Assembly (NCBI GenBank): GCA_020055645.1
Contig: CM034547.1
Location: forward strand, 42,945,909-43,009,908
Reading direction: 5' to 3'
Origin: Tomocerus qinae
Taxonomy: Eukaryota > Arthropoda > Collembola > Entomobryomorpha > Tomoceridae
Length of the DNA stretch: 64,000 nucleotides
Both the position numbers and the translations under genes were made by a program. Under the pieces are notes generated by a model, which saw only the letters and a program-made list of their open reading frames with translations, did no database searches and was not told where the DNA came from. Shown here in pieces: positions 1 through 62,282 of the stretch; positions within the stretch are counted from its first letter, which is position 1; every line of letters starts with the position of its first letter.

Positions 1-1299
1 TGATGATACAGGTGAACGCTAAACTGGGAGGAGCACCGTGGACTGTTAGAGTGCCCCTGAATGTAACTATTTTTAAAATTGTCTTTGTCTATTTCATTTT
101 AATGTATCTTATTTACAATGTCTATCCAAAATCCAAATACAACTTGAATACGACACTAGCCACTGATCATTCTTGTGCTACATAAGAATAGTCTTTTAGT
201 TGCGCATTTAGTTATGTTATTATTAGTATTAAGATGGAAATCAAGAGGTAATGATTTATTGACGTGGTGGTTTCATTTTACAGCAATTAATGGTCATTGG
301 TTTTGATGTCTATCATTGCGGAAAAAATAAGGGACGTAGTGTTGGTGCTGTGGTTGCGTCAACAAATAAAGATTTGTCTTCCTACATCAGTGTGACATCG
401 TATCACGATTCCAGGGAAGAACTGGCAAGCAACTTAGCTAGTGACATAACAAGTTAGTGAAATCAATGATTAAACCCATTACTATTTTTTATACATGTAA
501 TAAATTATTTGCTCAATAACAAATTCAATTCCATGTTTATAGAATGTCTCCATTCTTACAAATCTCTAAATCAGTGTTTGCCAGCACGTATCATCATGTA
601 CCGCGACGGGGTTGGTGAAGGTCAACTCACTTTTGTTTATCGCATTGAGCTGGAGCAAATAAAGGTTAAATTTTCTAAATAGACTTCCTATATGTACCAA
701 TTGGTAATTAAAGCTAATGTAATAATGAAATAAGAAATAACGTTTGTAACTTTTGTATTTACTTTTAGAATGCAATGAAAAATGTTTACAAATCTTGTAA
801 TGCACCTGAGCCAAAATTTTCATTTTTGGTTGTCAACAAGCGAATTAATGCAAGGATTTTTCAGAGAAGCGTAAGACCTGGTGGACCACCTTCAAATCCG
901 CCAGCTGGAACTGTTGTAGACGATGTTATTACACTGCCAGAACGGTAAATATATTGCGATGATAATATTTAGTTTGAATTTTGAATTCTTTTGAGTTTTA
1001 ATTGATTAAATAAATGTTCTTGCAGATTTGACTTCTATCTGATTGCTCAAAAGGTTGGCGTCGGAAGCGTCAGTCCTACATCGTACAATGTGTTAGTTGA
1101 CCAGCAGGGCCTGACTGCCGATCGACTGCAACTGTTGACTTACAAGCTGTGTCACATGTATTACAATTGGTCTGGCACTGTGGCTGTACCTGCACCGTGT
1201 CAATATGCACATAAATTGGCATACTTGACTGGTGTTGCTCTTCAATCTTGTGTATCTCCAGGTTTGGCACGTTTGTCCAACAAACTCTACTACCTATAA
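1..1299 (+). CDS. piwi: Piwi-clade Argonaute, C-terminal part (5' end outside window)
   Basis: PIWI-domain half of a piRNA-guided RNA slicer of the germline transposon-silencing pathway. Five exons join in frame with GT-AG introns: <1-62, 284-452, 543-664, 769-944, 1026-1299, giving 266 residues to the stop. Visible Piwi signatures in order: INAKLGG-type motif ([10 protein letters not shown]), GFDVYH (first catalytic Asp), a REEL segment that probably holds the glutamate finger, [10 protein letters not shown] (second Asp), [26 protein letters not shown] and [11 protein letters not shown] (catalytic His). The DDH slicer residues are therefore all present, so the protein should be catalytically competent. 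It ends in LYYL, like other Piwi proteins, whose C-termini insert in the MID domain. GFDVYHCGK and the TVVDD block place it in the Piwi rather than the Ago clade. The N, PAZ and MID domains lie to the left of the window. Which Piwi paralogue this is cannot be told from this half. Confidence 0.95.
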
Positions 1300-1563
1300 T
1301 TCAGTTCCCTGAGCCAAAAGGCTAGGAGAGCTTTAGGAGAGAGAGAGAGTCCTTTCATCGTCGATTTCAACTTTTTCATCTGTCTTTCAATATTTTCACT
1401 ACTATCTTAAATATTTTGAGAAGGAGTGAAAATGTCTTGGACGTATCAAATGACTCTATTTAATTGTGAACATGCATGGTTTCTTTAGTACAATGCAAAG
1501 CGAAATATACCATTTAAACGTACAAAGGGAGTACATAATTACTTTTGGAAATATAGAAGACGA

Positions 1564-1569
1564 AATAAA
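1564..1569 (+). terminator. candidate polyadenylation signal for piwi
   Basis: AATAAA lies 265 bp after the piwi stop in AT-rich DNA. It is the first canonical hexamer downstream. Further AATAAA hexamers occur later, for example near 2718 and 4770, so a longer 3' UTR is possible. Confidence 0.4.
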
Positions 1570-3599
1570 ATGATTCCATTGGCAGCTGTTATGCTATCGT
1601 CTATTTTCCTGTTTTACTGTGCCTTAAGCTATCCTTCCACTACTTATAGAAAAGGAGTTTTAACTACATACAAAACGATCATGATATTCAATGACGATAA
1701 TATATATAGTACTCCATTTGAAACCTAATGTTCAAATCGAAATTAGCAATAAATCTAAGCGTACATAGCTCTGGAAATTAAGTTAAAATAATACTACCTT
1801 CCAACAAACCCATTAATTGATCAATTATTTATTGGGTGTTGTAAATAATGGGGACTGTGAATCATGACCTGTTCAAGGATACAAATAATGACGAAGCTCA
1901 TTTGTTACAAATATATTATTCACTGCCACGTTGTCCTTGCCCAACGACTTAGTGACTAGAAAATAGTTCAAAAGACACGTTTGATACAATCTCAGAAATA
2001 TTTTCAAACGACAATTTTTGACTACAAAATATTATGTAATACTTAAATCTGAATTCCTTTGATATACTTAAAAGTGGGTAGACCGATCGGTAGATACTAC
2101 CTGCTTATATATAGTCACTAAATACTATTATGTTAGCGTTATTGCACTAATTTTATTACCGATGCTGGTAATACTAAAATTAACATGTAAAAAACTAGTT
2201 ATACGAACTAGCAATTTTTTAGTTCAGGTTGGAGTTAGAAGTAAGACCAATAAATGTTGAGAAATTGTTTTTCATTAAAATATTGCATTGAAATGTGAAA
2301 CATAAAGATTACTACAATATAATTTTAAAATGTGGTTCTGCTTAGCTCTGTCCTGCCTTATACTTTTATGTTTTAATTTTGTTACCGTTATTGTTATTGT
2401 TATTACTTAATATCTCAGCTTAAAGACTTTTTGTTTGCTCAAATGTTACATTTGCCACCTGATTGTTGATTTTTGGATTATTTATGGATCTGTTTTAAAA
2501 CTTAATAGTATAATATTATGTTGAATGAATAATGTTTGTAAGATTTTAGCGTAGGAAAACATTTTAAAGTACCTTACTGCAATGTACAGAAATGATACAC
2601 AAAAAACTGTTTGTGGACCACTGTTGTAAAAAACACTATCCTATTAATATTTATACTATTAATTGGATAAATCAGCAATAGAAGCAATTTTAAGTCATGA
2701 AAGTTTGGTTCTCTAGAATAAAGAAATGAATAAGACACCAGTGCATTAAATATTTTCGAAAGAATTCATTCAGTTGTTTTCAGATTTAGATGATATAGTT
2801 GCTTAAGTTGCTTTTATGCTTAAAAACATATTTAATATTTAACTATAAACTTATTATTTTACATGTTATGCACTCGTATAGCTAGCTTAACTACATTAAA
2901 GGAAGTTGTATTATTGTTTGTATAGTACCCATTGTAATATGTGTGCCTTGTTCGTGCCTACTAAATATATTATTACTAATACCGAGTTTTTGTAAACATG
3001 ACTGTTAGAGAAGGGTTCTGATCTGAGTGAGTTTCAATTTTCAATGTAAAAATGTCTTTTAAGGCTATATGGGCAAGGGTTTTAAAAAATAATTGTAATA
3101 TTATTACAATAATGATATACGAGCTGGAAAGTAATGTTACTTTGGGTTTAATATTTTATAAGGGGGTATAAGTAATTTAATATTATAAAGGAGTGTAGTT
3201 TAGAGGTAATGACTGTAACAATTTTTAGGCTTAGACATTACTACAGAAATTATAGCGTGGCTTAGGCACAAAAGAAAATGATTTAAAGTGTATTTTATGT
3301 ATTTAATAAAATAATATTAGATAATTTTTATAGAATGCAAACCAAATTCAAATTAATTACATTAATTTTAATTAATTAAAAAAGTAAAAAATGTATTTTA
3401 AAGGTAAATTTTGGGTACTTTGAATATTGATAGTTTTTTTGAATGAATAAAGGCGAACTTGAAGGGCTTATTTTAACCATAGAAAATAATAAATGTAATA
3501 GGTAAATAATACATGACATGACATTGACTCGGTTCGGTTGAATGGTGGCTGACGAGTCGAGGATGCTAGTTACATTGAAAAGGAACCTAATAATTATTT
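1570..3599. other. AT-rich non-coding stretch after piwi
   Basis: No ORF with recognisable protein features on either strand. The stretch is AT-rich with several AATAAA hexamers; part of it may be extended piwi 3' UTR. I see no RNA gene or transposon ends. Confidence 0.5.
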
Positions 3600-4200
3600 A
3601 ATTACGCATTACTCTTTCTCAATTTCAGTAATTACAAATCACTCAACATTTAATTTACAATGTATTTACATTTTACTTAATTTTCCCGTTTAAAAATTAG
3701 TTTCACAATTTAGTTACAAATTATTTCAATTTTAGTAAATAAAAAATAACGAAATAGTTTCTCAATTTTAGTAGTTACAAATATAATATAAGAAATAACA
3801 TCAATTTTGGTAGTTAAAAACAACTTTAATTTCAGATGAGAAAAATTAGTGTAAATTATATAAAATAAATGCTTTCTTAATTTTAATAGATAATGTCTTA
3901 GTTATTAGTTAGAAATTAGAAATAGAAATTACTTTCTCAGATTTAGAATTTAGGAATAGGAATCACAATTTACTTACCATTAATTTTAGAAATTACAAAT
4001 TATTCTCAAATTTAGAAATTACAAATTACTCTTAATTTTATAAATTACAAATTACTCTTAATTTTATAAATTACAAATTACTCTTAATTTTGTAAATTAC
4101 AAATTACTTTACTAACTAATTTACTATTTTAGTAATTGCAAATCTTGATTGTCAATTTTGGCAGTCATACAAAGTACTTTCTCGATTTTAGAAGTTACCA
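3600..4200. repeat. degenerate tandem satellite, 26-bp unit in its best-kept part
   Basis: A loose array built on the motif AATTTTA(G/T)nAATTACAAATTACT(C/T)T recurs through about 600 bp. The clearest part, about 4010-4110, repeats a 26-bp unit (starts ATTACAAATTACTCTTAATT) nearly three times with one or two substitutions. Copies to the left are progressively more diverged, with variable spacing. It is extremely AT-rich and has no coding potential. This looks like an old local satellite with a small recently homogenised core. Confidence 0.75.
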
Positions 4201-5874
4201 ATTACAGTGACAATTAGATATTATATTATAAATACAATTACCTACTTGTATACTTCTCATTTCTTTAAGTTAATTAAGGTTTAGATTCATAAAGTCAAAT
4301 ATTTAAAACTGAATGTGTAATGAATGTGATAATTATTATAGTTTTTCAAAAACAAATTTTCTTGTGCTAAAAATATCAATGAGATTCAGATTGTGTGTTG
4401 GTTCTGTATGACTTAAAAAATAAGCTGATTGTAATTAATTGTATTAGTAATGTGATTAAGCCATTAACTAAATTGCCTTAGAATGGGCCATCAACTGTTA
4501 TGGCCATTTAAATTGAGATTTCTGTGCAATATAAAAAATAACAAGAGAACTTAAATCAAGGCTGTATCAATCCTGGGCATTATGCAATTCAAGTTTTGCT
4601 GAAGGTATCTCTAATCTTATAATCAAAATACCTATGACCTATGCAAAATAAATTCTTAATTTAGTATCATTGTATCTCAATTTGACTTTTATTAATAACG
4701 CTTGATCTGTGCCTTTATATTATGTATTACAATTTGACATATTTTGTACATTCCTCCGTAAATTGGAAAATAAAGTATTTAGCTTGTAGTTGAACTAATT
4801 CAAAATAATTCAAAAGTAACTCAATCATTGAAAGTTTGCGAAGATGCATAGTAGAACGCGTTAAGCCCAAAACTGTAATGGACATCGAATGGGACAATGC
4901 CCTTAGATTTAGGTAACTACTCGACTACAATCGTAATAATCATCATAATTAGATCATGAATGATGTACCGAGTACCGGTACTATGGAATATGGACCAGAC
5001 TGCCAGACATGGCAGGAAATGTGATGAACAGGTGATACATAATATAAAAACTACTTTTCCAGTTTTATCTGTGGTGAATAATAATACAATGATAAATAGA
5101 ATGGTTGAAATTATTACTTTTTCGTGGTTTAATATTCAGGGCATTATTATTCAGTTTCCTCCAGAATCCAGACAGAAGCATTTGAAGATGATACTTACAA
5201 CAGGCTTACGGGTAGTTAATAATTTATAAAGTATGATTTGAATACATGCATTCTTAGGATTACGTACGTATAATATACAATACATACATTTATGGGAAGA
5301 AGATATAACAGTGTGTAGAGAAATATTATATAGGGAAGGGCAGTAAGGAGTATAGCATGGGCTGTCTTACAAGGTATAATTTGTAATTGTATGATGAGAT
5401 GAGCAATGGCCAATTAGTGATGTAGATTAATGTGTATAAGGTTCAAAATCAGAGTAGCACGTTGTACTGTTATGCTTATTATATGCCTAATTGTCTGTAC
5501 AGGTTCGTATAAAATAGTGACTGGGCTAACAGAATCTCCAAAATGCATCTAATTCTTAATTATACATCTGCAAACACGTTACGTAAATGTGTAGATACAC
5601 CCAAATTATATTCATACTTTATAACGTTCATTGTAACCCGAAATGTATGTAATTATGTAGTAGAGAAGAGTGGTTGAAGAAAGCTTGCCTAAACATTTTA
5701 GTATTTTATTTGTTTACTGGACTGGAACAACTTATCTACTAAGTTAAATCTTAGACGGGGCTACATAATCGGTCATCATAGGTGCTGGGGTGCTGCTGTA
5801 TTTTATTTAAATAGAGGAGATTACATTATAGAATTTAATTTCTAAGTTGAGAAAAGATCCAAATTTTCGAAAAA
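4201..5874. other. intergenic, no supported feature
   Basis: AT-rich DNA between the satellite and the lectin gene. An 89-codon plus-strand ORF at 4960-5229 shows no family motif, signal peptide or consistent splice context, and is treated as chance. Confidence 0.5.
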
Positions 5875-6785
5875 ATGTGCACAATTAAAAGTTCTTCCTC
5901 TTTTGTTTACATAGCTTTCATTTTGTCTTTAGCTTTCGTAGTAAACTCTGAGAATGATAATGACGTAGATAAAAATCCTACAGAAGAAGAGCCATCAGAT
6001 GACAATGAATTAGAAGAAGCAGGTTTAAGATTAATGGTCCCAACCAAAAATAGTAAAGTCCTTCGTGTTGCCTATTATGTCAGCAAATTCATGGTAAGTC
6101 GAATTCTCAAGCTTAACATTCTCAAGAATTCTATTTTATTAATTCACAAAATCGCCAATTTCTTATACAATACAGACATCATAATCATATGGAAAACAAT
6201 AAAACAGTTATTGTTCCCACACATGTGTAGCAGTTTTCATAGTTTTCAGGGATTTGAAAGTAATAGTTTCAGATTTCTAAATTATATACCACAGGTAATA
6301 ATTAACTTTTCTTATTGCAGGCCGACTGGGATACAGCCGGCAAATATTGTGCGGATGTTAACATGAAATTAGTAGCGATCGAGGATGTTTATGAAGACAG
6401 TGATATTGTTGGTTATCTTAAGACTCAAGGTAATAAAGCTTGGCACTCATGTAAATTTTTACATGTTTACAAGTTTTTACAGACCTCCAAAATATATTTA
6501 CTTTTCGTACTTTTAAACATAATATCTATATATCTAAATATCATGATAGATATCTTACGAGCTTGGACATCGGGAAATGATTTGGCTGTAAATGGCAGAT
6601 ATGTTTGGTCAGCGACCAAAAAACCATTTTTATATTCAAATTGGCACAAGAGCCACATTCCCAGGGATGAAAGGAGATCCTGTGTCTTCACTGCAACAGA
6701 CAAATTTTGGAATGATGGAACATTTGGCTGGGATGAGGATTATTGTAACACTAGACATCATTTCATTTGCGAAGAACAACTGTAA
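5875..6785 (+). CDS. secreted C-type lectin-domain protein
   Basis: Probably a secreted carbohydrate- or pathogen-binding protein. Three exons (5875-6093, 6321-6429, 6562-6785) give 183 residues. Residues 1-25 form a signal peptide with a hydrophobic core (FVYIAFILSLAFVV). An acidic linker rich in D, E and N follows to about residue 50. The C-type lectin fold then runs to the C-terminus. The four framework cysteines are C83, C150, C171 and C179, which fit the canonical 83-179 and 150-171 disulfides. FWND at 158-161 corresponds to the WND calcium-site motif. The usual EPN or QPD sugar-specificity tripeptide is absent: that segment reads SNWHKSHIPRDERR, so sugar binding is uncertain. Arthropod C-type lectins of this size usually act in humoral immunity or cuticle and gut surfaces; the specific role here is not known. 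Confidence 0.88.
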
Positions 6786-26597: not shown

Positions 26598-26859
26598 CCT
26601 AATACCCCCCGAGTTCGAATACCCCCCCTATTCGAATACCCCTCCGTCCTACTACTTCCCGGCACACTACCCCCCGGTTCGATTAGCCCCCCGTTCGACT
26701 ACTTCCCCGTTACATTACCCCCCGCCCCGAAACGATAATAAATAATTGATTTTAATCGTCCACGATGCTATATAGTAAGGGAAAAATGGTAGAGACTAGA
26801 TTGGTCACTACTGTTAATTATTTGATAATATTATTATGCATATGTAGTTATTAGTAATG
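26598..26859 (+). repeat. left inverted arm of the foldback element
   Basis: Starts CCTAATACCCCCCGAG and ends TTATTAGTAATG. Its outer 130 bp consist of a 14-18-bp motif of the type TACCCCCCGNTTCGA repeated about eight times with variation. The inner part is AT-rich and pairs with the right arm. Confidence 0.8.
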
Positions 26860-27084
26860 CATTTAACTCTGGACAATTAACTAAATTGTGTTTTAAAACA
26901 GTAGATGCACAAACAGTTTGCTTTTGGTACAGGAGAATAAAACAAAAATTTCCGTTACATTGGAATCCCACCCACCCAGTCTTAATTTGCAGTTGTTTAG
27001 TTTCCATTGTCGGTAGATACCGTTTCTTCTCCGTAAAGATTTTGTACATTTGTTAACGAAGCCTGCCCACTTGACCACTGTGAA

Positions 27085-27363
27085 CATTACTAATAACTGC
27101 AGATACATAATAATTATTATCAAGTAATTAATAGTAGTGACCAATCTCGTTTTTACCATTTTTCATTATCCTGGTTTTTCCTTTACTATATAGCATCGTA
27201 GACGATTAAAATCAATTATTTATAATCGTTTCGGGGAGGGGGGTAATGTAACGGGGAAGTAGTCTAGCGGGGGGCTAATCGAACCGGGGGGTAGTGTGCC
27301 GGGAAGTAGTAGGACGGAGGGGTATTCGAATAGGGGGGGTATTCGAACTCGGGGGGTATTAGG
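27085..27363 (-). repeat. right inverted arm of the foldback element
   Basis: Reverse complement of the left arm with scattered substitutions and an extra stretch near 27165-27180 (inside the GAAAAA region). Carries the same C-run motif repeats, read on the minus strand. Confidence 0.8.
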
Positions 27364-50400: not shown

Positions 50401-53400
50401 AACGTATTTATGTAACACGTAACATGTAGTACGTAGCAAAAGCGTTTGATTCTGATCTGTTCGAGATCGACCAAGTCACGTTTTATGCAAGCGTTTACTG
50501 CAAGCCTGAAAAATCTTATGCTTTGGGTTCTTTGTGACTTTGTCGATTTACGATCTGGTCTGGTTTGGATTTTGATTGGGTTAATAACATCTATGATTTG
50601 GTCTGAGAACGGATTGGTTGGTGTACATAACAATTATAAGAGATCTCCACGAATTCTCACAACAACTACACTGTATGTAATTACTAGAACTATTCTGAAT
50701 TTCTTTATTCTGGTTTACTGTATTTGTATTTGTATGTAATGTACGTATGTAATGTATTGTCTTTATTTTGAATTTTGAACTAATTAATGTATGTATTGAG
50801 GTTGGCTGCCATTTGAGTGATTTTTCTTGTAGCATTTCCCTTCACAGCGATTCGGACTGGTTACCCCACACAGCTTCTAGCGTCTCAGTACGGGTAAGTG
50901 TACACCTTGCTAATGCTTTTGCTGTGGGGTTTCACTAATTTATTCTCAAATCGACAGTAAAATCAATTTTTTGAAAGAATTTCTGACTCTAGAGAAAATT
51001 CACATTTACATGATTTCCATTTCCGAAAGAAATTCATTATTTGACAAAGATTTCATGAATTGACTTACACTCTCTGTGGTTTCTTATACAAATGAAATGT
51101 AAAAAAGTATAAATGATCAATATACGACAATTGTGTAGAATTTTTTGAGTCTTTATTCAATCTTTTCTTTCGATCAGCGAAATGTTCAAGTTGAATTGAA
51201 AAGTAAATCAAAGTCTATTCTCCATGAAAGCCTTATCTCATTCTAAGAAAATAATGAACTAAAACGAAAGTATTAAACAAACACGCTGAAGTGAAAGAAA
51301 ATCAATTTCAATCTAGATGAATCTGTCTGGCAGAATAAAAGGATATAAAAATATAAACTTAACACACTATCTACTGATCTGTGTAAAGTATTGAAATAAC
51401 TTCTCTGTCTGTTTACAATTACTTACAATAAATACACCTAACTAAAAAGCAAAGCAAGATTGAACAAAATGTCCACAGCCATTGAGACGTACGTACGATG
51501 AAAAACGATCCAATTAAGCATATCCAATGAACTCACAACAACTGAAATAAAGACAAGCCTTAGCTGGCATGGCACGGCACTTAGCTGTAGTTTTTGAAGA
51601 GTTCTCTTGAATGACTTGGGTTTTTGGCACGCAGTTTTTGGTTGTTTTGTGATGTCATGTCAAAGTGGTGGGCTGGCTACATTTTTGTATTGGTATTGAG
51701 TTGAATTGACTTTCTATTGTACGTATTATTTATTTTTTACTGTCGTGTCAACCTTAAGAGTCATCTGGCTGGACTGATCTTGGGTGTAAGTCAGAGGTGG
51801 GCAAATATTTTTTCGGCCCGGCCCGGCCCGGCCTGCCGCCATTTTTTTTTGAACACTCATCGGCCCGGCCTGGGCCGAATATGTACATTCAAAAATTTTA
51901 AAAATTTCGGCCGGCCTGCGGCCGGCATATAGCAAAAAAATTTCTGAGCGGCCGGCCTTCGGCCGGCCTGATACTATGTATACAACAGCGCGGCCGGCCT
52001 CCGGCCGGCCTACAAGTACTTTTTAAAAATTTCGGCCGGCCTTCGGCCGGCCTATACGTTGTTAATGTCAGGCCGCGCGATTTCGGCCCGGCCCGGCCCG
52101 GCCTGAGATTCATTTTATACAGTTTATGCTGATTACGATAAGTAATTATAATAACAATTGAACATGCCAGTTAAAAAAGTCACGTGATTAGATATGCATT
52201 AGTCACGTGAGTATATATTATGTATACTAACCACGTGAGTATATATTATGTATACTAACCACGTGAGTATATATTATGTATACTAACCACGTGAGTATAC
52301 ATTATGTATACTAACCACGTGAGTATACATTATGTATACTAATCACGTGAGTATATATTATGTATACTAATCACGTGAGTATATATTATGTATACTAACC
52401 ACGTGAGTATACATATATATATACTAACCACGTGAGTATATATATATACTAACCACGTGAGTATATATATACTATAACCACGTGAGTATATATATACTAA
52501 CCACGTGAGTATATATATACTAACCACGTGAGTATATATATACTAACCACGTGAGTATATATATATACTAACCACGTGAGTATATATATATACTAACCAC
52601 GTGAGTATACAGAGATGTGCAAAAGTAACTAGGCCATAGGGCTTATGCATAGCAGTGTCCAAAAATACAATCCAAGGTGTGTTAGTATTGCCATGGTTCC
52701 CGGTATCCCAAACTGGAGTTAGATTGGTTACTAACACAGTATAAATCTCCTAGTTACTTTTGCCCATCTCCGTATATATATACTAACCACGTGAGCATAT
52801 ATACTAACCACGTGAGTATATATACTAACCACGTGCGTATATACTAACCACGTGCGTATATATATACTAACCACGTGCGTATATATATACTAATCACGAG
52901 AGTATATATATACTAACCACGTGAGTATATATTATGTATACTAATCACGTTAGTATATACATACTAATCACGTGAGTATATATATACTAATCACATGAGT
53001 ATATATATACTAATCACGTGAGCATATATATACTAATCACATGAGTATATATATACTAATCACGTGAGTATATATATACTAATCACATGAGCAGCATTGA
53101 TAAAGCGGCCGGCCTGGTAATATTTCGATAAAATCGGCCGGCCTTCGGCCGGCCTGGTACCATTAACATTAAAATACGGCCGGCCTTCGGCCGGCCTGTT
53201 ATCAAGTACATCAAATACCGGCCGGCCTTCGGCCGGCCTGTTATCAAGTGCATTAGATACCGGCCGGCCTTCGGCCGGCCTGGATAGGAATATTAAAAAT
53301 TTCGGCCGGCCTTCGGCCGGCCTTTTGTCGAAAAATGTGCAGGCCGGCTGTTTCGGCCCGGCCCGGCCCGGCCTGCGGGCCGGGCCGCGCCCACCTCTGG

Positions 53401-54459
53401 TGTAAGTACTAATGTACATAATTTTCTGGTCTGCCTCTGACTCGCTGCTGGCTGACTGGTCTGTTTTTATGGAATTGACGTTTTTTCGTTGTAATTCACT
53501 GTGACTTTTAACTGATGTTTCTGCACTTTACTTTTGACTTGATCATTTTCCATGTGTAGGTTTGTCATTTGTTAATGTTATTTTATCGAATTGTCTTTTG
53601 AATTGAGCGTTAAGCGTGTGATGGTTTTCGTTTCGCTTCGGAATTTTTAATTATCTTGTAATTACCTAATTGTTGATTTAATTCTACTTTATGATTGTTC
53701 TTTAAGACTCAATTAATTCAACACTTACAATACAAACACATTTCGACAAGACTTGATGTAATTTTATGTCATTCACCTTTAACAATGATAGCCAGCGAAA
53801 TAAACGCTGGTTATTTTAGAAGACTTATCGTTGATAAACGTTTTAGACCGTTTCCTCTATGTTATTGGTTATATTATGTGAAAGAAATATTTAATGGAAC
53901 CTCAAATTTCTATGAAAAAAATTTCCCTCTCAAAAAATAATGATTTTCATGGATCCGAAAACTGTTTAATATACTTAGGTTACCGGGAAGTTACGTGTAT
54001 CAGCCAGCGGCGTATGGAGGAGCTCCTCTTTTATCTCTACCGACAGCAGCAACTTCACCAGCCTTAGCAGCAGCAATAGCGGCTCAAGCCTCTCAATTTT
54101 ACGATTCTTATCAGCCTGCTAATTTGGCGTCCTCAGGAGTAGCACCTGGAAGTGCGGCAGCTGCTGCCTATCCGACTGCGGCTCATTTTGCCGCCCAGGC
54201 GGCTTTTGCAGCGGCGGATCCGTACACATCTAGCTATTTGGCAGCGACCAGTGCAGGGGCCAATCACAATGCAGCAAATGCGGCTGCTGCTCAACATCAC
54301 GCAGCCGCTGCGGCTTATGCAGCTTATATCCCTCAAATGGCGGCGGGAACAATGAATTCTGGAAGCGCTTCCGTGGCTGCAGCCGCTGCGGCGGCTGCCA
54401 ACGCTGGAATTTCTCTTACGCCTTACGCTGCTGTTGCTCAAGACTCTCGAATGCAATGA
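41444..54459 (+). CDS. RBM24/RBM38/SUP-12-type single-RRM splicing and mRNA-stability factor
   Basis: RNA-binding protein orthologous in type to vertebrate RBM24 and RBM38 and worm SUP-12, which regulate muscle splicing and mRNA stability through GU-rich sites. Six exons join in frame: 41444-41543, 42881-43107, 44437-44566, 46678-46749, 50833-50893, 53979-54459 (356 residues). Residues 1-58 are Ser/Thr-rich. The RRM spans about 61-140 with [19 protein letters not shown] (RNP2 LFVGGL, 66-71), [20 protein letters not shown] (RNP1 103-110), [19 protein letters not shown] and LGAKPR, near-identical to the vertebrate proteins. A Pro/Tyr/Gln segment and a long Ala-rich C-terminus follow. It ends in SRMQ, like the DRMQ end of RBM38. 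Introns are far larger than in neighbouring genes, and the last holds a 1.6-kb transposon. An alternative first exon may lie at 36.65-37.0 kb. Confidence 0.93.
43108..44436 (+). other. intron 2 of the RBM24/38-like gene
   Basis: Interrupts the RRM directly after the RNP1 phenylalanine (GYGF/V). Donor GTAAGT, acceptor CTCTCCAG. A 112-codon ORF inside (43383-43721) has no protein-like features and is treated as chance. Confidence 0.85.
44567..50832 (+). other. introns 3 and 4 of the RBM24/38-like gene around the small exon 46678-46749
   Basis: About 6.2 kb of AT-rich intronic DNA carrying one 72-bp exon ([14 protein letters not shown]...). All small ORFs inside lack protein features. A TA-rich palindromic low-complexity tract lies at about 45668-45735 and a CT-rich tract at about 47245-47268. 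No other structure is seen. Confidence 0.7.
45668..45735. repeat. (TA)-rich low-complexity tract
   Basis: Almost pure A/T with repeated TATACTATAT and ATATATTATA motifs. Likely simple-sequence expansion within intron 3. Confidence 0.7.
51908..52053. repeat. left array of GGCCGGCC-N3-GGCCGGCC hairpins
   Basis: Four imperfect palindromes of the form CGGCCGGCCTTCGGCCGGCC start at 51908, 51949, 51991 and 52033, a pitch of 41, 42 and 42 bp. Spacers of about 21 bp differ between copies. Two CGGCCCGGCCCGGCCCGGCC blocks (about 51814 and 52084) bracket the array. Confidence 0.9.
52204..52603. repeat. first CACGTG minisatellite array
   Basis: CACGTG palindromes start at 52204, 52232, 52260, 52288, 52316, 52344, 52372 and 52400, exactly 28 bp apart, then continue at 23-29 bp spacing to 52598. 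The unit reads CACGTGAGTATATATT plus ATGTATACTAAC. Later units lose the ATTATG part, which explains the shorter pitch. Each unit contains TACTAAC (or TACTAAT) before and GTGAGT within the palindrome. Confidence 0.9.
52610..52772. mobile_element. nested hAT-type MITE
   Basis: 163 bp interrupting the CACGTG array. The left end is CAGAGATGTGCAAAAGTAAC and the right end, reverse-complemented, is CGGAGATGGGCAAAAGTAAC; the 24-bp ends differ at two positions. The CAGAGATGGGCAAAAGTAA type of end is common among hAT MITEs. The flanks are the array itself (GTATA on both sides), so an 8-bp duplication cannot be defined cleanly. Confidence 0.8.
52773..53094. repeat. second CACGTG minisatellite array
   Basis: Continuation of the same array to the right of the nested MITE, with units of about 19-28 bp. 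Copies are more varied: CACGTGCG, CACGAGAG, CACGTTAG and CACATGAG forms occur alongside CACGTGAG, and TACTAAT replaces TACTAAC toward the right. Confidence 0.88.
53105..53325. repeat. right array of GGCCGGCC-TTC-GGCCGGCC hairpins
   Basis: Begins with a half unit at about 53106, then five complete palindromes starting at 53135, 53177, 53219, 53261 and 53303, exactly 42 bp apart. A CGGCCCGGCCCGGCCCGGCC block follows at about 53354 before the terminus. Confidence 0.92.
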
Positions 54460-59979: not shown

Positions 59980-62282
59980 ATGAACGAGTTTCAGTGGAGT
60001 CATGCAGTAACTAATTTTTGCGCAAACTGCAATTTGACATTTGACGAAAATGCTTCAAAATCCAACAAAGTGAACATTACGGATAACAACAATTCTTTAG
60101 AAATTCAAATTTTGGACGCCCTTCTGTATATGTATGGACTGTCTCGCGAGGACTTCGCCCAAACATTTCCCCAGCATTTTGATGAAATTTTGAAATATTT
60201 TACAGACGTCGGAGGAGACGAAGTTGCTCTTTGCCATAATTGCACACAAGTATTTCGAGATGCTTATGGTATGTATATTAAATTCGAGAACTTGACTAAA
60301 GAGGATTCATTGTTGAAGAAGGCTATACAATCATCAAGATACCAAAGACTCCAATTGAAAACGGAACCAGAATTTGTTGAAGATCTAAACGAAAACAACA
60401 ATTTATTTAATTCTTGGAATTCCAATGAAAGCAATTTCTCTGATGGAGCAAGCAACGAAGACTCAAATCACCATTCCCAGGGTACAATAAACTATGACAT
60501 AAAAGTGGATATGGAAAATGAAAAATTCTCAAAGAGGACGAAGAAATCCGCAAACATTGCCCGTAGACCGAGAGGAAGGCCGAGAAAAGTTGCGAAAACA
60601 GGGAAACTAGTCATTAAATTTTCGAAACGTCAATTTCCGTCCGAAGTTGAAAACACTACGAGCTCTGTAAAGTGTGAAAGTAAGTTTTCAAACAATACTG
60701 TTTTTAAAACCAAAAAAACGAGCAGTTATTAATATTGTTTAATGAGATGCTGGAGACGTTTGTTAATATTCAATTACTTTTAATAAGCGTAAAATTAATA
60801 TATTAATTAGTTAAAGTTAATGAATTTAATAAGGTAATATTTTGGTGTTATTTAGGTGACAGTACATTTCAACCTTACTCAAGGCTAACGAGGTCCAAGT
60901 CTCATGGTTCAGGTTCAGAACAAAAGAGAAAACCATTACTAAATTATGGGGAAGATGACGTTTCCTCGAATTCAGACTTTGAAGATACCTTTGTCAAAAA
61001 AAGAAAGCCGTCAATCAAACAAAGTAATGAGTTGATTTTGATTGAATTGTACCAGTTTTCTCTGTCGTATTACATTCCGTACTTATAGTTATTAGGCATA
61101 TTTACACATTTTTGGTAATAATTCTTGTAGGAATGATAATGAAGAAGTACCGTGACAAACCACTTATGACTGCCATTTCTGATAAATGTGACGTTAAACA
61201 AGAAGACTCCGTAGATGTACAAAGTGACGATGAAGAAAAAAATGGCGAGGATGGTGTCCACCGAGGTTTAAAAAAACAGTTTACTAAGATTCGCCCTGAA
61301 AACGGGAAACGTTTAGTGTATGTTTGCAATGTATGCGGAAAAAGCATTACTAGAATCAAAGTGTTCAAAGTCCACATGAATGCCCACAAAAAAGAAGCCA
61401 ACAAACTGAAAAGGGCAGTTAGAAAAAAAGTCAAATGTCCCCATTGTGACAAATTATGCAAGAATGAAGATTCGTTAAAAATACATGTAAGCAATCATCA
61501 TTCAGGCGCCCCCAAAGTCTGTGATAAGTGTGGTAAAACATTTATGCGAATGGAAAGTTTAAAATTGCATCAACGGTTTTCGCACACTGATGATAAACAG
61601 TTTGAATGTAAGGTGTGTGGAATGAAATATAAATGGAAAGGCTCGCTACAAAGTCATGAATTGACCCACAAAAACCCACGACCTCACGTTTGCGAAAGGT
61701 AATAAAATTTATTAGCTTAGTACTGCTACATTTATAAAATTAAATCATGAATAAGGGGTAAATTTTGTGTAAATAATGTTTTAATTTCGGTAAAGGTGCG
61801 GAATGACGTTTGCAAATAAATCTAATCTTAACCGGCACAAGACGTACCATGAAGATGAAGAGCAAGATAAGGAGCTATTCAGATGTCAAGATTGTGGGAA
61901 AATTCTGAAAAATAGGAAGAGTCTTAAAAAACATATCAATGGAACCCATCGCGAAGATTTACAAAGAATTTTTACTTGTAAGTGTTTTAATTTATATAAT
62001 TAATTAATTTGATTAAATGAATTATTAAATAATTTATTTTTTTAAATACCAAAATTTAAAGGCCCAATTTGTGGAAAAACCACAAAAACCAGACCTAATT
62101 TGAAAGCCCATATGAAAATTCACGATCCAAATCGAATTATGAAGAGAAAATCGGAGACAGTAAGAAATTCAGATAGTACCGAAAGCGCAACGGTAATACA
62201 GTCATTACATAATTCTCATGCACTGCCTCCCCCGGTAGGGGATGTCTACCAACTACAGGTACCACCGAGTGCTTGGTATTAG
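59980..62282 (+). CDS. ZAD-like, AT-hook, seven-finger C2H2 transcription factor
   Basis: Nuclear DNA-binding protein. Five exons join in frame: 59980-60679, 60856-61023, 61131-61698, 61796-61977, 62062-62282 (612 residues). The N-terminus has two CxxC pairs, C14/C17 (FCANC) and C85/C88 (LCHNC), enclosing a helical segment: the ZAD dimerisation layout. An AT-hook, RRPRGRPRK, lies near residue 200. Seven C2H2 fingers follow: YVCNVCGKS, VKCPHCDKL, KVCDKCGKT, FECKVCGMK, HVCERCGMT (split by intron 3), FRCQDCGKI and FTCPICGKT (split by intron 4). ZAD-C2H2 proteins are a lineage-expanded arthropod family, so a named orthologue is unlikely. DNA target is unknown; the AT-hook suggests added minor-groove contact with AT-rich DNA. 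Confidence 0.88.

Follow-up and report, generated by a model that had tools for sequence, protein, structure and literature searches.

The 64,000-bp stretch of the Tomocerus qinae genome analyzed here (C2:42945909-43009908, hereafter the window) carries a 1,608-bp hAT-type insertion at window positions 51792-53399, set between two copies of the 8-bp sequence GTGTAAGT. It is a non-autonomous hAT element, with the tips of a longer partner, 8-bp duplications and no transposase of its own. The explanation that we favor, with a probability of roughly 0.65, is that this element was moved in trans, that a ladder of GGCC palindromes near both of its ends would dock the transposase, and that the CACGTG array between them would be a passenger. 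In the 334-Mb assembly of 115 contigs that we searched, the element has many relatives, and it is as good as shown that they form a real, recently active mobile hAT family, which we call family A. A cytochrome oxidase I stretch of mitochondrial type in this assembly stays open for 524 residues with TGA translated as tryptophan (genetic codes 4, 5, 9 and 14), and code 2 yields no frame above 200; this would indicate an invertebrate host.

An initial annotation of the window had already proposed a 1,608-bp non-autonomous hAT insertion, and the boundaries bear this out, with exact copies of GTGTAAGT on both sides and CAGAGGTGGGC and its reverse complement at the tips. One frame read from end to end meets 33 stops, and the sole open reading frame of at least 90 amino acids that overlaps the element is a 119-amino-acid frame across the right GGCC array. 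The features are listed below by window position, with strand where one is assigned.

51784-51791, left copy of the target-site duplication, GTGTAAGT, exact 8 bp
51792-51802, plus strand, left terminal inverted repeat CAGAGGTGGGC, 11 bp
51815-51833, left terminal GGCCCGGCC cluster, the first site, its centre 33 bp from the tip
51909-52052, GGCCGGCC-TNC-GGCCGGCC palindrome pairs of the left array, centred 127, 168, 210 and 252 bp from the tip
52069-52105, inner GGCCC cluster, centre at 303 bp, 51 bp past the last palindrome pair
52181-53066, CACGTG array in tandem, with 26 exact CACGTG and units of mostly 19-29 bp
52610-52772, nested miniature inverted-repeat transposable element (MITE) inside the CACGTG array, 163 bp, TA-flanked, with free copies elsewhere
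53136-53322, right array of GGCCGGCC palindrome pairs with a 42-bp period, centres 87, 129, 171, 213 and 255 bp from the right tip
53355-53373, GGCCC cluster at the right terminus, centred 36 bp from the tip
53389-53399, minus strand, right terminal inverted repeat, the reverse complement of CAGAGGTGGGC
53400-53407, right copy of the target-site duplication, GTGTAAGT, exact 8 bp

The window element holds 18 copies of GGCCGGCC and 26 of CACGTG, against 0 and 8 in the remaining 62.4 kb of the window. The GGCC unit is GGCCGGCC-TNC-GGCCGGCC, with the two GGCCGGCC 11 bp apart from centre to centre; in 200 mononucleotide shuffles of the element the mean number of such pairs was 0.0. Inside the tips the two ends are unlike (CAGAGGTGGGCAAA... 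on the left, CAGAGGTGGGCGCGGCCCGG... on the right), and this difference is retained among the copies. The interior had been described as a symmetrical sandwich, which it is not: there is no mirror image, and the GGCC units point in the same direction at both ends in all 27 elements that could be scored at both, of 29 examined (the other two are L019, with units at a single end, and L023, with none). A foldback element was rejected on the same count. The inner border of the left array (52069-52105) resembles the right tip minus its terminal repeat, with an equal 51-bp step, and the short element may possibly have been born by an internal copying or repair event.

The size of family A is a lower bound: 136 matches came from a search with the window element, scores cover 40 of the 221 candidates of the first look, and two-ended copies were paired by a script demanding exact tips. 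Overall, at least 23 two-ended copies were found, 20 of them short (721-2,916 bp) and three long (9,616-10,251 bp); five further copies with one recognizable end (L018, L020, L024, L025 and L026) were excluded from the pairing. The 8-bp flanks were identical in 23/23 two-ended copies, including 3/3 long ones, and the 23 duplications all differ. Two copies, L003 and L004, occupy separate sites with separate duplications and show 100% identity over 1,564 bp. In their end blocks, L003, L004, L032 and L034 also match the window copy at 100%, so movement was recent. L019 and L023, whose end blocks match the window copy at 78.4% and 77.2%, are older copies. The checks that the initial annotation had suggested thus came out in its favor, since other copies share ends and arrays together, 8-bp duplications flank them, and three long copies combine the same tips with a hAT transposase.

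The nested 163-bp element has the ends C(A/G)GAGATG(T/G)GCAAAAGTAACTAG, sits between TA dinucleotides and interrupts the CACGTG array. Among its free copies, L039-L042 have TA at both ends, and L043 has one end only, with no TA there. It is carried by 14/20 short copies and therefore probably entered before most of them spread.

The three long copies of family A, called AUT1, AUT2 and AUT3, lie at the following places.

C1:12884112-12894362, long copy
C1:133950603-133960817, long copy
C4:20137597-20147212, long copy

They carry a hAT dimerization domain (Pfam Dimer_Tnp_hAT, PF05699, E 3.6e-17), and their coding frames match Hermes (E about 1e-12), whose insertions also have 8-bp target-site duplications. 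The sequence between the frames is of the form GT...AG, compatible with two short introns. One of the three long copies has all three frames open; each of the other two has an interruption in its N-terminal or its middle frame. All three long copies contain, in forward frames, the peptides MWTDRRQQS, MADNGAN and SGDVERLFS, which are candidates to hold the RNase H-like D, D and E catalytic residues. By eye, the putative N-terminal finger of the transposase has a C-x2-C and SHARRH pattern. The CACGTG count in the long copies is 0. The left parts of AUT1 and AUT3 contain minisatellites with units of 13 bp (~23 copies), 24 bp (4) and 23 bp (AGATATCT, >50), placed in AUT3 (L015+L016) at joined positions 1112-3208. 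On the minus strand of AUT3, at joined ~4000-6000, several short open frames between the array and the transposase are possible exons of another gene; two small minus-strand frames of this middle part matched no Pfam family up to an E of 5.

Two sister families, B and C, have the same kind of GGCC arrays, and their transposase pieces are 40-62% identical to those of family A; G(G/N)T-x-SHA(R/K)RH is common to the putative fingers of all three. Family B, with ends CAGAGATCGGC, was taken at 12 places, of which 7 have paired exact ends and the other five are L050, L053, L055, L060 and L061; 8-bp duplications flank 7/7 paired copies (1,213-9,319 bp). Family C, with ends CAGAGCTGGGC, is represented by one 8,486-bp copy (C4x) with the 8-bp sequence ATGCCCAA on either side.

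Across these families the GGCC units form a ladder. Spacings of 41-43 bp, about four helical turns, account for 7/9 of those below 60 bp in the window element and for 27/31 in AUT3, the family-B copy B1 and C4x together; the window element, AUT3 and C4x otherwise have steps of 51-52 and 94 bp, near five and nine turns of 10.5 bp. Measured from the tips, the left site centres lie at 33, 127, 168-169, 210 and 251-253 bp and the right ones at 36, 87-88, 129-130, 171-173, 213-215 and 255-258 bp in the window element, AUT1, AUT3 and C4x, all agreeing within 3 bp. One end of family B, with sites at 33, 85, 126, 168, 210 and 252 bp, repeats the left ladder of the window element plus one rung. The helical-phase concentration at 10.5 bp was 0.92-0.96 at both ends of families A and C as well as at one B end, and 0.75 at the other B end, a figure that is driven by the constant spacing and so describes the pattern without testing it independently. 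Both arrays had been annotated as phased; this is right for the regular GGCC array and wrong for the CACGTG array, whose spacing is irregular.

The sites are also much better kept than their surroundings. At 84 left and 99 right positions picked from the window sequence alone, the GGCC sites of the window element are 98-99% identical to those of AUT3 or C4x, and the rest of the ends is 47-61% identical. Among 12 arrays of six elements, mean pairwise identity was 0.31-0.59 in the linkers and 0.88-1.00 in the palindrome cores; the choice of palindromes at ≤3/16 mismatches favors intact cores, so that the core figure has little room to fall, and leaves the linker figure free. Because sites and spacing are kept while the linkers have diverged, because the ladder accompanies one transposase lineage, and in view of the Hermes and CGG-domain papers cited below, the GGCC arrays are likely candidates for transposase-binding sites. 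The idea that both arrays serve transposase binding is thereby retained as a prediction for the GGCC arrays and finds no support for the CACGTG array.

The CACGTG array is a minisatellite with units mostly 19-29 bp long, in which, by eye, CACGTG alternates with AGTATA...TATACT. In the window element successive CACGTG are 19-29 bp apart, or 46-51 bp in the final part of the array, and the nested insert parts two of them by 190 bp. Each short copy has 10-47 CACGTG (at least 10 in 20/20). The genome contains 196 exact matches of the 21-mer TATACTAACCACGTGAGTATA (places given for the first 100 of the 196), of which 193 fall in the 23 copies and 3 in the truncated L026. Since family copies account for the whole count, the array seems to have expanded within the element. 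A satellite captured by the transposon, one of the origins offered in the initial annotation, was accordingly rejected for exact copies. Core and flank identities were 0.899 and 0.889 in the window copy, 0.790 and 0.829 in L022, 0.745 and 0.755 in L023, and 0.807 and 0.831 in L021, with the flank values raised by five flank positions used as an anchor. CACGTG was thus no better conserved than its flanks in 4/5 copies measured. The exception is L019 (core 1.000, flank 0.962), which has its own homogenized 25-bp version of the array. Most likely, the CACGTG array is a passenger minisatellite.

Taken together, we propose the following course of events. The short element would owe its movement to the 10-kb elements, whose transposase would act in trans, since both kinds have the same 11-bp tips and 8-bp duplications. 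The palindrome pairs, spaced every 41-43 bp in a ladder that begins 33-36 bp from the tip, would present roughly one face of the helix, and the transposase is predicted to bind them, as subterminal sites, through its N-terminal finger. Hermes transposase is an octamer. Here, a transposase multimer may load along each end and pair the two ends. The CACGTG array, in place of the coding region, would have grown by tandem duplication inside the element and would play no part in transposition except to space the ends. A TA-flanked MITE would then have inserted into the array and been copied afterwards with most short members.

Several observations weigh against this proposal. The short and long copies are only ~71% identical over their end blocks, with the tips and the GGCC ladder in common, so that cross-mobilization is an inference. 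The finger was recognized by eye only and is putative: the N-terminal exon of families A, B and C gave no Pfam match to a BED finger, and a three-family N-terminal profile compared with solved structures found no finger. The full ladder was present within 1 bp at both ends in only 10/20 short copies (left 15/20, right 11/20) and in 2/3 long ones. In AUT2, L005 and L007 the right-hand site at 87 bp is missing and those beyond it are displaced by 3 or 11 bp; sites are also displaced on the left in L033 and on the right in L045 and L029, and L019, L022 and L023 are degenerate. Such copies stand between intact duplications, so either not every site is needed or some sites decayed after insertion. 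At its other end, family B departs from this geometry, with sites at 51, 98, 210 ... bp. The sister arrays are of common ancestry, so that their retained spacing is non-independent evidence. Finally, of the four motifs of hAT or insect type described in PMC8097297, two are AT-rich, so that a CGG preference is not universal.

The GGCC arrays might instead be bound by a host protein, such as a silencer, an insulator or a replication factor, with the transposase needing the tips alone. GGCCGGCC is short and GC-rich and could be bound by a host zinc-finger protein, and the inner palindromes of family B lie up to 461 bp away from a tip. Yet the ladder is measured from the tip and accompanies one transposase lineage across three families, and no GGCCGGCC was found around two other hAT domains (L038 and L046, loci that may be partial elements). 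We therefore regard a host-protein role as unlikely; host-factor binding had also been suggested in the initial annotation, and nothing found here shows such a use of either array. Selection for hairpins or cruciforms, that is, for secondary structure and not for sequence, seems very unlikely. Each pair could form an 8-bp stem with a 3-base loop, and 207/314 scored units are perfect palindromes. Nevertheless, of the arm pairs that have changed in the 48 distinct imperfect units, 107 were one-sided, 11 were compensatory and 2 were two-sided without pairing; such mostly one-sided changes speak against selection on pairing, and the same GGCC letters are retained although pairing would permit others. 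Hairpin selection is thus not supported.

It is also quite improbable that both arrays are functionless satellite expansions, with the GGCC spacing simply inherited from a common ancestor. Tandem Repeats Finder calls the right GGCC array a 42-bp tandem repeat, the long family-A copies also have their 13-, 23- and 24-bp minisatellites, and half of the short copies depart from the full ladder. However, decay would erode cores and linkers equally, as seen in the CACGTG array, whereas the diverged GGCC linkers have kept their cores and, in most copies, their length. As for the CACGTG array, it could be functional as a run of E-boxes that drives transcription or recruits a basic helix-loop-helix factor, and the at least 10 CACGTG in every short copy, the diverged L019 (47) and L023 (10) included, agree with this, as does the perfect core of L019. 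The other four copies measured, in which CACGTG is no better kept than the anchor-raised flanks, and its absence from the three long copies make such a function distinctly doubtful. Docking of the transposase on the GGCC ladder, with CACGTG as a passenger, remains the reading that we prefer.

The sister families also carry a 3'-5' exonuclease gene next to the transposase. The exonuclease-bearing elements are located as follows.

C1:10847264-10856582, family B (L048+L049)
C4:33449674-33458159, family C (L037+L017)

The B1 exonuclease matches PF01612 (E 2.7e-27), and its nearest solved relatives are EXOSC10 and RRP6 (RRP6/RNase D type); the frame is interrupted in B2 and B3. Of the 84 exonuclease loci in the genome, 17 are found at most 12 kb from a hAT dimerization domain, compared with a mean of 0.66 and a maximum of 5 in 1,000 random placements; the 17 include same-family copies, and the remaining 67 loci are without a hAT domain in that range. 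A search of AUT1-3 with the family-B exonuclease protein found nothing at E 1e-3, and the best hit of two exonuclease proteins in the middle 3.4 kb of AUT3 had an E of 3.0. Family A therefore appears to be without the gene. One could imagine a hAT lineage whose phased ladders are loaded at both ends by a higher-order transposase and whose exonuclease, with a possible zinc knuckle seen by eye, takes part in transposition, the window family being a branch that lost the exonuclease; we think it improbable that this whole scenario is correct. Judged by titles and abstract openings, with subscription papers and Repbase outside the scope, we recognized among the papers listed no description of a hAT element that bears an exonuclease gene, or of one with internal tandem repeats or regular sites like these.

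To our knowledge, how a hAT transposase recognizes its own ends is structurally known mainly from Hermes. The BED fingers of Hermes bind precisely placed, partly palindromic subterminal repeats, and exact phasing of the left-end repeats is suggested to be crucial (PMC10368747). The elements described here are like Hermes in their Hermes-related transposase and their multiple, partly palindromic subterminal sites; unlike Hermes, with its asymmetric AAGT-type motifs, they have a ladder of GGCC palindrome pairs in 41-43-bp steps at both ends, as predicted sites (PMC10368747). Many hAT-derived DNA-binding domains favor CGG-type motifs, and for the four hAT proteins that yielded a motif, the motif was found in their own subterminal regions (PMC8097297). 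The present elements, with a putative finger seen by eye in the N-terminal part of the transposase, may be comparable to such CGG-binding proteins and CGGBP-like hATs. Galileo, of the P superfamily, also has tandem repeats within long ends, which contain multiple transposase-binding sites; it differs in its superfamily, in its THAP domain and in that its repeats lie in long inverted repeats, whereas the units here are co-oriented (PMC3688188). Tetris, a foldback element of Drosophila virilis, is likewise non-autonomous, with internal tandem repeats and tips common to another element, but its repeats also form long satellite-like arrays, whereas here no exact 21-mer occurs outside the family and the ends are non-foldback (PMC4079207).

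What is unusual here is how long and how phased the palindrome ladder is at both ends, together with the exonuclease of the sister families. The same palindromes at near-equal distances from the tips, with changing DNA between them, predict a binding site, a spacing and a helical phase, and the two arrays in one element show how a constrained site array differs from a passenger minisatellite. Elsewhere in the window, positions 26600-27363 are built of repeats, with long inverted ends of ACCCCCC/TTCGA-type units and, by eye, without a target duplication. Positions 61115-61702, ~8 kb from the window element, hold a coding frame for C2H2 zinc fingers.

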